Below, one piece after another: positions 24,422 to 27,155 of a stretch of DNA of 27,205 nucleotides. The stretch lies in the IMG/VR virus record IMGVR_UViG_3300022699_000083, positions 1 to 27,205 of that record; one strand, 5' to 3'. The first letter of the stretch is position 1. Each line of letters starts with the position of its first letter. The notes below the pieces were generated by a model. It ran no database searches. It saw only the letters and a program-made list of their open reading frames with translations, and was not told where the DNA came from. The stretch comes from a virus. The translations under genes were made by a program, and so were the position numbers.

Positions 24422-25693
24422 TTATATTTTTTTTATTAAGCCTTTTTTATGCCACCACATAGCCCCATACCTTATTCGATCTATTTCGTGGTTATGCATA
24501 TCAATAGGCTTTTCTAATTGGTTGCCGTTCTTGTCAACGTCCCAACAGTAAACACGTTGTTCATATGCTATGCTTTCACTTGTATCTGTATAATAAACGT
24601 CTAAGTTATGCAATAAATCAATACCATCTAATATCTTCTTAGAACTGCCATCAATAGCTTGTGCATATTCCCATCCTGCACGTCTTAAAGATAATATTTT
24701 TTCTGGTCTGTTACTGTCGCATATTATAATAGCATTCTTAGGTATGTTTAATTTGTCAAACATCCACGTTACAAAGCCATCACCATCACGCCCTTTAATT
24801 TGCGCTAATTCTGATGAGGTCATTGTTGAGCGTATTTCATTTTCTGATTTGTAGTTAAGTGAATGGTTAAATAACATACCATCGTAATACTTCATTTCTC
24901 CTATTGCAAAAGGGTCTTGCTTACCCCAGTCAACTGTATAAATATTAGGTGCATCAATAGATAAATATTCGTGATACGTAATAGGCTTCCAAAAGAATAT
25001 ACGACCCTCAACGCCACCAATTTGACCTAAGCCATAGATGCGCCACTTATTAGCCCAATACTCAGACTGTACGTTTTCGGCTTTGTCGTAATCTTTTAAG
25101 TCTGGATTCTTATAACCACGCTTTTTATAATTTAGTATTTCGTTAACTTCTTCTTTAGATAGGTATTCGTTATCAAGGTAAGTAAGAATAAGAAAGTCAC
25201 AGTCATCACGTGGTAACACTTCCTTGTGAAACCAAAACGATTCGTTAGGGTTAAAGTCTATAATAATACGTTTAGCCCTTGATGTTAACTCTCTATACGT
25301 TTCAAAGTTTACTTTATTAGCCTCATTGACAAACATTATATCACTTCTTAGCCCTTTACCCACGTCCTCTTTATCTAAACCCAAGAAGCGTATAAAAGAT
25401 TTATTAGGGAACTCTATTTTAGGCGCACCAAAATCAACACCAGTAGCTTTAACCTCATCATACTTATTAAACGACCTAAGAATATTAATACAGTCTTTTA
25501 TAACGGTATCACGCATTTTAGAAAGTTCTGCTGATGCTATGTATATCTCTTTGTTTGGGTGCTTAATTGCGTGGTTAATGATAAGTATGAGACAACTATA
25601 AGTTTTTGATGCGCCCTGTCCCCCTTGTAAACCCCATATCCTTTTCTTTAATGCTGATATTTTACGAAGCCCAGTTGTTACAGTAACACTCAT
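24422..25693 (-). CDS. terL: Terminase large subunit
   Basis: The 423-residue ATPase-nuclease drives DNA packaging. Walker A is GGQGASKT (24-31), with Ser in place of the usual second Gly. Walker B is DIMFVNEAN (118-126), with Asn-Glu in place of Asp-Glu. IIDFNPNESFW follows at 144-154. The nuclease half has VDWGKQDPF (Asp255), IICDSNRPEK (Asp326) and HEIDRIRYG (Asp405) as metal-binding acids. Length is normal for phage large terminases. It overlaps TerS by one base (TAATG). Confidence 0.9.
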   Translation of the reverse strand: MSVTVTTGLRKISALKKRIWGLQGGQGASKTYSCLILIINHAIKHPNKEIYIASAELSKMRDTVIKDCINILRSFNKYDEVKATGVDFGAPKIEFPNKSFIRFLGLDKEDVGKGLRSDIMFVNEANKVNFETYRELTSRAKRIIIDFNPNESFWFHKEVLPRDDCDFLILTYLDNEYLSKEEVNEILNYKKRGYKNPDLKDYDKAENVQSEYWANKWRIYGLGQIGGVEGRIFFWKPITYHEYLSIDAPNIYTVDWGKQDPFAIGEMKYYDGMLFNHSLNYKSENEIRSTMTSSELAQIKGRDGDGFVTWMFDKLNIPKNAIIICDSNRPEKILSLRRAGWEYAQAIDGSSKKILDGIDLLHNLDVYYTDTSESIAYEQRVYCWDVDKNGNQLEKPIDMHNHEIDRIRYGAMWWHKKGLIKKI

Positions 25694-26163: not shown

Positions 26164-26415
26164 TTATTTACAATTCTTAACTTTTCTAAACCAATGATTG
26201 TTTGGTAGGTTTTGTTGTTCTCTAAAAACATCAAAATTATCAGAATTATTAAATTGATTATCGCACGTATTAGGTACGTCTATTATCGTATAACTACCAG
26301 TTACACCTGCTGATCCGCTAACTATTATAATTTCAACGTCACACTTGCAACTGTTGTCGTCTTTACTGCACGACGCTAATATAAGCATCGCTAAAATTAA
26401 TATTAAATTTCTCAT
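26164..26415 (-). CDS. Small surface lipoprotein candidate (83 aa)
   Basis: The protein has a type II signal peptide with lipobox LASC (Cys16), followed by SKDDN. Lys then two acidic residues shortly after the lipidated Cys matches the export signal that moves lipoproteins to the cell surface in Capnocytophaga-like Bacteroidota. The mature part is about 68 residues with four Cys (NSCKCDVEI, NTCDN, KNCK), probably two disulfides. Small lipoproteins like this occur in other flavobacterial phages. Blocking the outer-membrane receptor after infection is the main functional idea. It overlaps the upstream gene by 4 bp (ATGA). Confidence 0.65.
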   Translation of the reverse strand: MRNLILILAMLILASCSKDDNSCKCDVEIIIVSGSAGVTGSYTIIDVPNTCDNQFNNSDNFDVFREQQNLPNNHWFRKVKNCK

Positions 26416-26795
26416 TGTTGTAATTGTTTTAATTGTTGTTCGTAAAAATTTATACGTCTTTTAATAAAATCCACTTTATTAATGTTTACTTTAACCTTAT
26501 CTTTTTTATTATCCATAAACTTAAATAATACTTTCTCAAAGTGGTTTACCTCGTTTTTGAACTTAGTATCTAATAACATAAAGTTAGGAAATTCTTTAAT
26601 GCCATGTATAACTGTTGCGTGGTTAAACCCAGCTGCATTTCCGATGGCTTGATAAGTTAAGTACTCTGGAATATAATTGTAAGCGTAATAATAAAACAAA
26701 TATCTTATTTTAATTATTTCTACTTTCCTTGTCTTTTTTGTAATATCTACATTAAAGTAATCTTGTGTAAATTGTTTAAGTTGTTCTACTGTCAT
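26412..26795 (-). CDS. DnaA domain IV-like DNA-binding protein
   Basis: The 127-residue protein has YQAIGNAAGFNHATVIHGIK (48-67). This closely follows the helix-turn-helix signature of DnaA domain IV (IGxxFGxRDHTTVxHA), with His and Thr-Val-x-His conserved. No AAA+ ATPase domain is present, so it is not an initiator by itself. The C-terminal third is basic and helical (KVKVNINKVDFIKRRINFYE). It may bind DnaA-box-like sites for replication or late-gene regulation. The structured intergenic region lies immediately upstream. Confidence 0.75.
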   Translation of the reverse strand: MTVEQLKQFTQDYFNVDITKKTRKVEIIKIRYLFYYYAYNYIPEYLTYQAIGNAAGFNHATVIHGIKEFPNFMLLDTKFKNEVNHFEKVLFKFMDNKKDKVKVNINKVDFIKRRINFYEQQLKQLQQ

Positions 26796-26817
26796 TGTTT
26801 ATTTATTAAAATTAAAT

Positions 26818-26921
26818 GCTCGTCTTTCCGAGCCGTCAGTCTTGTAAGTATTAACGGTTTTTATGGACCATAATAAAATGGCAAAGCTGCTCCGAATTAA
26901 GGTAAATGTACCCATACTTAC
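26818..26921. ncRNA. Structured non-coding region: three-way junction plus hairpin
   Basis: The 144-bp gap between DUF3310 and the DnaA-like gene has no ORF but clear pairing. P1: GTAAGTAT (26844-26851) with ATACTTAC (26914-26921). P2: TAACGG (26852-26857) with CCGAATTA (26892-26899), with a two-base bulge. P3: GGTA (26901-26904) with TACC (26909-26912). P1 encloses P2 and P3 with almost no unpaired junction bases. Next to it, GCTCG/CGAGC (26818-26833) forms a hairpin with a 6-base loop. Read on the - strand, it would be the leader of the DnaA-like gene; strand is not certain. I recognise no known riboswitch, tRNA or ribozyme. Confidence 0.5.
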
Positions 26922-26939
26922 GTCCTACATTAGCGACAA

Positions 26940-27155
26940 CTAAGGATTTTCACGCAGCTTTCTTAAATATTTAATCTCTCTTTCAATATAATCTTTTGCC
27001 TTTAGTAAGTCTGGCAAAGGATCTTTTGTTTTTTTACCTGCTCGACATATGTATTTAAGAACGTTAAATCTAAAGAAGTTTAAATTATAATTAATTGCAA
27101 CATCTATAAGGTCGTAATCTTTTCCACTATCGTAGTGCGGGCGTGATGCTTTCAT
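26940..27155 (-). CDS. DUF3310 family protein
   Basis: The 71-residue protein has the landmarks of DUF3310: RPHYDSGKDYDLIDVAINYN, then FRFNVLKYICRAGKK, and LLKAKDYIEREI. The family is common in phage nucleotide-metabolism and early regions, often fused to or near nucleotide kinases; its activity is not settled. The ATG at 27155 overlaps the end of the preceding gene by 4 bp. Confidence 0.85.
   Translation of the reverse strand: MKASRPHYDSGKDYDLIDVAINYNLNFFRFNVLKYICRAGKKTKDPLPDLLKAKDYIEREIKYLRKLRENP

Follow-up and report, generated by a model that had tools for sequence, protein, structure and literature searches.

The boxA element of rrn leaders is a linear sequence, and boxB of the lambda nut site, a small hairpin whose loop is rich in purines, depends on the phage-specific N protein. 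In lambdoid phages, nut or put occupies the early-left leader, and GOLLD and ROOL are structured non-coding phage RNAs that often lie near tRNAs. The latter two are large, phage-associated and assigned to separate families (PMC12286853). The put RNA of HK022 (putL and putR) is a protein-free antiterminator that binds the zinc-binding domain of the RNA polymerase β′ subunit (PMC9378689). Theta ribozymes are HDV-like RNAs beside phage tRNAs and start at the tRNA 3′ end (PMC10879173).

The RNA analysed here lies in a virus record of 27,205 bases (the window) and ends in a short hairpin that recurs in many phages. The element resembles HK022 put in having two adjacent stem-loops in phage leaders, and the early-left leader position refers to relatives (L385, L469 and L384) rather than to the window itself; put is known from lambdoid phages, whereas the new class spans several bacterial phyla. 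A search of HK022 positions 25000–32500 yielded no UGRC-hairpin with a GA..A loop of this type beyond unrelated chance matches. By analogy the element perhaps acts like put, but by sequence it is not a member of the put family. It shares with rrn boxA and lambda nut the setting in leader RNA of untranslated or early operons, but its loop and joint are common to several phyla. Like the theta ribozymes, it is a phage-specific structured RNA beside tRNAs, with a pseudoknot topology in the window subclass; however, its hairpin ends 3–7 nt before the tRNA, on the opposite side. With GOLLD and ROOL it has in common that it is a structured non-coding phage RNA near tRNAs. An Rfam 15 scan of the window gave no family match at gathering or permissive thresholds, in agreement with the initial annotation, which knew of no similar RNA class. 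In scans of 23 related loci, tRNA and tmRNA were the sole families to reach gathering score, the other matches being sub-threshold and due to chance; HDV-family, GOLLD and ROOL matches were absent from the window and these loci. Literature text searches for the hairpin or the core retrieved nothing relevant within a coverage that left out preprints and most subscription journals, where a prior description is possible. We rate the element as a categorically new RNA class, mechanism aside.

The gap between the two flanking genes (26796–26939) is 144 nt long, and the minus strand is the coding strand around it. The structured RNA comprises approximately 145 nt of the minus strand, from 26961 to 26817, and therefore reaches past the gap into the DUF3310 gene. 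The gap had been described as 144 bp and free of ORFs; the length is correct, but a 38-aa ATG ORF (26799–26915, minus strand) runs through most of it. The features are as follows, in the direction of transcription.

26940–27155, minus strand: gene for a DUF3310 protein (PF11753, E 1.4e-9), whose last codons form part of the RNA
26954–26961, minus strand: 5′ strand of P0, AAAGCUGC, at the end of the DUF3310 gene; partner at 26883–26890, forming a pseudoknot with the 8-bp stem
26922–26945, minus strand: 5′ core, CCUUAGUUGUCGCUAAUGUAGGAC, overlapping the DUF3310 stop codon and near-invariant in 21 aligned relatives
26914–26921, minus strand: 5′ strand of P2 (the 8-bp stem), GUAAGUAU
26901–26912, minus strand: P3 hairpin GGUA-CAUU-UACC inside P2, from the MFE fold; by reading, relatives have other sequences there
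26892–26894, minus strand: 5′ strand of P4, CGG; partner at 26855–26857; weak (3 bp) in the window
26883–26890, minus strand: 3′ strand of P0, GCAGCUUU, pairing with 26954–26961
26867–26882, minus strand: P5 hairpin GCCAU...AUGGU above the CGG/CCG stem, from the MFE fold of the window
26855–26857, minus strand: 3′ strand of P4, CCG, assessed by own-versus-swapped pairing in relatives
26844–26851, minus strand: 3′ strand of P2, AUACUUAC, covarying in relatives
26839–26841, minus strand: GAC directly abutting UGACG; may pair with GUC of the core loop (26935–26937); invariant in 21 of 21 relatives
26834–26838, minus strand: conserved UGRCR joint (UGACG in the window)
26818–26833, minus strand: terminal hairpin GCUCG-GAAAGA-CGAGC, the defining part of the class
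26817, minus strand: A after the hairpin; A in 15 of 24 unselected copies
26412–26795, minus strand: gene for a Bac_DnaA_C domain protein (PF08299, E 2e-8), with its ATG 22 nt past the hairpin

The GC content at 26818–26921 is 40%, while the genes on either side have 26% and 32%, as the initial annotation had indicated. The three-way junction that it proposed is borne out by the MFE fold and by the covariation of P2 in relatives: the perfect 8-bp stem (26921–26914 with 26851–26844) encloses the GGUA/UACC hairpin and the CGG/CCG stem topped by GCCAU/AUGGU. Comparison with shuffled sequences, which had been named as a possible refutation, gave a z-score of −2.36 for the minus strand of the 104-nt stretch, but 5 of 200 shuffles folded equally well; the values for the whole gap on the minus strand and for the plus strand were weaker (−1.70 and −1.48, respectively). 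The folding energy is only moderately unusual and alone would not have settled the case. The reality of the RNA was decided by comparison, since its relatives show covariation.

Direct relatives, sought by a scan for GAC-UGACR-hairpin, were found in other viral contigs (at least about 20). They have in common the core CCUUAGUUGUCGSUAAUGUAGG, the 8-bp stem, AAGAC (CAGAC in one) and UGACR. The letters of P2 in most relatives are GUUGUAAU with AUUACAAC or AUUACAAU, very unlike those of the window. P2 is nevertheless paired in 99.4% of the cells across 21 relatives and 6 of its 8 pairs have changed on both sides, a count that is not a probability for these related sequences; the compensatory changes that the initial annotation asked to look for are thus present. 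The covariation score of the whole structure exceeded all 500 of 500 shuffles and every slid control.

P0 is a perfect 8-bp pairing in the window, and runs of at least 8 bp occur in 3.1% of shuffles of its two segments; from the window sequence alone P0 is only suggestive. Because MAFFT alignment failed to put P0 in register, it was assessed by comparing own with swapped partners, and own pairing scored 8.0 against 5.5 (p 3e-10, 19 non-redundant relatives); a handful of members score best with a stem other than the one at the usual place. P4 is longer in relatives and covaries (own versus swapped, p 2e-6). The GUC/GAC pair (P1) is invariant in the 21 relatives, and covariation speaks neither for nor against it. 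The 5′ part of the window subclass is a pseudoknotted domain of approximately 120 nt. The structured RNA first noticed in the gap is confirmed and larger than first described, the pseudoknot into the upstream gene having been missed.

A covariance model built from the 8-bp stem and hairpin only matched five members of a second, marine group outside its training set (E 1e-5 to 1e-7), and by eye the marine members have the same stem order. R1 had no match in four bacterial genomes with the exact 22-mer described below; from this it follows only that the copies there are members of other subclasses or fall short of the threshold. A blastn search of the whole gap and its neighbours against annotated phages found no full-region relative, and the contigs of the nearest terminase relatives (L083, 97% identical, and L084) stop before the gap or carry other genes there. 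Homologous gaps had been proposed as material for comparison; among DUF3310 neighbours in 80 contigs, no copy of the RNA was found. A 17-nt exact match at the start of another phage gene was discarded as coincidental.

Two further observations concern these genomes. In most direct relatives (L389, L394, L397, L402, L403 and others), the terminal hairpin has one bulged base, GG-A-CG/CG-CC, and the variants GC-A-CG/CG-GC and GU-A-CG/CG-AC compensate around the bulge. The ~97% identical phage L083 (IMGVR_UViG_3300008963_000468) has a GIY-YIG-like homing endonuclease gene between its terminase genes and an additional HNH-like reading frame within an extended terminase reading frame, both lacking in the window.

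The terminal hairpin had been taken for a separate perfect 5-bp stem-loop; it is present as described but is part of a widespread phage element. It is the most conserved part of the window RNA and, with its 5′ flank, reads UGRCR-[5 bp]-GAAAGA-[5 bp]-A. When the gap was compared with annotated phages by blastn, only this short stretch matched, in unrelated phages of Vibrio and of the gut and in one crAss-like phage. The exact 22-mer TGRCRGCTCGGAAAGACGAGCA occurs in at least 119 viral contigs of IMG/VR, where we estimate well under one match by chance (assuming a size of ~45 billion bases). In bacterial and archaeal genomes, 257 billion bases in all, the same pattern turned up in 34 stretches; the element is therefore phage-associated, and the E. 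coli copies examined all lie within prophages. It was found in phages of Bacteroidota, Proteobacteria and Bacillota with a nearly identical hairpin, and Bacillus phages carry it with a different, compensated stem. Matches in Halorubrum viruses contained no complete hairpin. The IMG/VR counts are lower bounds for members picked by sequence, and stem diversity is underestimated because the scan patterns fixed most letters.

In a second scan, two stem base pairs were left free and the common stem was left out. Both free pairs were complementary in 95 of the 95 non-redundant matches listed, which comprised 11 different stems, against an estimated chance expectation of ~17%; 82 of these matches had Watson-Crick pairs only and 13 had G-U. 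This complementarity, together with the G-U pairs, identifies the RNA strand as the conserved entity, and the G-U pairs favour the strand read here, the one on which the downstream gene or tRNA lies. In a set unselected for UGRCR, this joint preceded 24 of 40 GAAAGA-loop hairpins with a G-C closing pair and none of 18 with another closing pair. The constant parts are therefore UGRCR, the closing G-C and the loop, while the stem varies.

Stems whose 3′ strand ends exactly at UGRCR occur more often than in shuffles (22% versus 6% for a stem of 5 bp or more within 40 nt), and stems offset by 2 or more from the joint are at background level. By reading, the abutting stem is compensatory in three small groups (e.g., CCUUA/UAAGG, CCAUA/UAUGG and CCUUG/CAAGG), and in many members the region upstream of UGRCR holds merely a short hairpin. 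The class plan is therefore a stem, UGRCR and the hairpin, the first stem being variable in content and usually adjoining the joint. The window hairpin passes a lax consensus scan for intrinsic terminators with its tail ATTTAATTTT. The T run is absent in many relatives, and terminator character is thus not a common feature of the class. Ten contigs (L100, L113, L117, L118, L123, L137, L142, L166, L190 and L199) show a subclass of their own ahead of UGACR, with the pattern RRG-AUAGGCGnAA...CYY...AUAGAACGC, in which GCG and CGC may make a second small pseudoknot.

Among the matches listed, a tRNA starts within 10 nt of the element, usually at 3–7 nt, in 25 of 130 distinct contexts; in the remainder an ATG commonly lies 18–37 nt downstream (22 nt in the window). 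Elements avoid long ORFs, 29.5% of them lying inside ORFs of at least 100 aa compared with 75.4% of random positions, and in the contexts read they share the strand of the gene or tRNA that follows. In the contigs holding the element, 44 of 259 tRNAs bear it; 38 of these 44 are the first of a cluster, and only 6 of 107 later tRNAs have the element (p 1.8e-5). Two unrelated E. coli prophage types (L385 and L469) carry it between a CI-like gene and the recombination/integration (left) operon, as does Stenotrophomonas phage L384. The order in the L274/L385 type is a promoter-like sequence, element copies, a T-rich terminator-like hairpin and the operon. In Erwinia phage phiEt88, the element comes after the Q antitermination gene and ahead of a tRNA and the holin gene. 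A tRNA-like sequence begins within a few nucleotides after the element in Bacteroides phage BS-TP2, and in several phages other structured RNAs lie directly behind it.

Some of these loci have additional features. The long leaders of enterobacterial prophages (L385 5148–5470, L274 6927–7400, L266 and L106) contain tandem hairpin copies, further hairpins with a GACCAA loop, and repeated GAGGAAAGACC stretches that are ribosome-binding sites in places. Structured RNAs just past the element at L097 ~722–800, L463 4022–4210 and L469 4023–4105 have long closing stems (AACACUCUGUAAGUGGU/ACCACUUACAGAGUGUU; ACACAAC/GUUGUG) and look like uncharacterised phage non-coding RNAs. A copy of the form ACUCAUUUGAGU-UGACA-GCUCGGAAAGACGGCU lies behind the replicase gene of the ssRNA phage Esthiorhiza.2_44 (L470, NC_073863.1, ~490–522). 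It has an abutting hairpin, ACUC-AUUU-GAGU, and a terminal stem with one bulge, and reads as a complete element; it could be a chance match.

The DnaA-domain-like gene lies directly downstream, as had been noted. A leader specific to it is not upheld, since downstream genes differ among relatives of the same RNA and the association is not conserved among them. Nor does a riboswitch tied to one pathway fit, as there is no common downstream pathway and the element also precedes tRNAs. A free-standing small RNA, likewise among the initial proposals, is possible. In L124, L141, L173, L373, L410 and L431 the RNA is followed by MNIFQETW...KDRTT(V/I)YHYLRSHE, a protein of marine phages, or by a close relative; it has the look of a small helix-turn-helix protein and no Pfam match. 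It was considered as a DnaA partner and set aside, having no Bac_DnaA_C match.

Sequence comparison thus establishes an RNA structure, its strand, its position and its association with phages, and from these we infer that the element probably controls the making or keeping of the RNA that follows. Our preferred explanation, held tentatively, is that the window RNA belongs to a large phage-specific class of cis-acting antitermination leaders, like HK022 put or rrn boxA. It is favoured because the first tRNA of a cluster, the early-left leader of the E. coli prophages and the Stenotrophomonas phage, the position after Q in phiEt88 and early-gene leaders are places where antitermination is used by phages or bacteria. 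Placement mostly at the first tRNA of a cluster is expected of an operon leader and not of a per-tRNA processing signal. The near-identity of the hairpin across Bacteroidota, Proteobacteria and Bacillota implies that its partner should be a universal bacterial machine. The nascent RNA would fold on leaving RNA polymerase and alter the elongating polymerase complex or a conserved host factor associated with it, and the following untranslated or newly starting stretch would then be transcribed through pauses and terminators. In the window, transcription would be carried beyond DUF3310 to reach the genes for the DnaA-like protein, lipoprotein and terminase. Against antitermination, downstream terminators showed no significant enrichment over all contexts (same strand 16 of 222, opposite strand 11; p 0.43), and the motif is absent from the searched HK022 region.

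A close rival, possible if somewhat unlikely, is a processing or stability element that sets the 5′ boundary of the tRNA, structured RNA or mRNA behind it, stops exonucleases or guides an RNase, and thereby separates and shields what lies downstream. The tight spacing of 3–7 nt to tRNA 5′ ends and often 18–37 nt to an ATG would suit such a role, but could merely reflect the compactness of phage genomes. The structured RNAs directly following the element in several phages are in line with it, as is its occasional location just ahead of a terminator, whereas the small share of tRNAs bearing the element (44 of 259) excludes a general tRNA processing signal. The genome of an ssRNA phage is never copied by host RNA polymerase. 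The possible copy at the 3′ end of Esthiorhiza.2_44 fits an RNA-level role and, if real, would make a purely transcriptional role unlikely and RNA decay or processing likelier.

It is less probable still that the element is bound by a ligand, or by a conserved protein of host or phage, and so governs how the next gene is translated. A stem that varies freely while its loop and joint stay constant is typical of a recognised RNA, and the element often lies just upstream of ribosome-binding regions; however, such control would make no sense ahead of tRNAs and non-coding stretches, where the element also occurs, and the downstream genes are diverse. A self-cleaving ribozyme, in which the pseudoknotted core and UGRCR hairpin would cut the transcript between the DUF3310 and DnaA-like genes, appears doubtful. 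The pseudoknot, the conserved and apparently unpaired core and the precedent of HDV-like theta ribozymes beside phage tRNAs (PMC10879173) would be compatible with cleavage, but many members outside the window subclass have only a short hairpin before UGRCR, and no Rfam ribozyme was matched.

A site acting as DNA, for example an origin, an operator or a packaging site, with binding to the inverted repeat, was suggested by the inverted repeats beside the DnaA-like gene, 0.7 kb from the terminase genes, and the initial annotation had considered an origin bound by the DnaA-like protein. This is very improbable given the covariation at the RNA level, with 95 of 95 complementary free pairs including 13 with G-U, which would be mismatches on the other strand, the long-range pseudoknot pairing, the constant strand relative to the downstream gene or tRNA in the contexts read and the diversity of downstream genes. 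A small protein gene is the least credible explanation, since the 38-aa ORF, although it starts with ATG and occupies most of the gap, has no family match and no match in phages, and is not kept in 22 related elements.

The most far-reaching reading, which we put forward tentatively, is as follows. A single RNA module of phages of Bacteroidota, Proteobacteria and Bacillota, and possibly of an ssRNA phage, may directly bind one universal bacterial machine and give phages control over the making or survival of untranslated RNAs; the window subclass would join this module with a pseudoknotted domain, sensor-like or catalytic, whose fold incorporates codons of the upstream gene. The element is small and easily placed in reporters, and natural compensatory variants are at hand, so that its function is directly testable. 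A covariance model of the element would improve the annotation of phage tRNA clusters and leader regions. A conserved RNA that is common across phages of distant phyla yet absent from Rfam suggests a basic, unrecognised step in phage gene expression. Should RNA polymerase be its target, protein-free antitermination would cease to be a lambdoid curiosity and become a general strategy of phages; should RNA decay be the target, nuclease-resistant viral RNAs would gain a general counterpart in bacteria.
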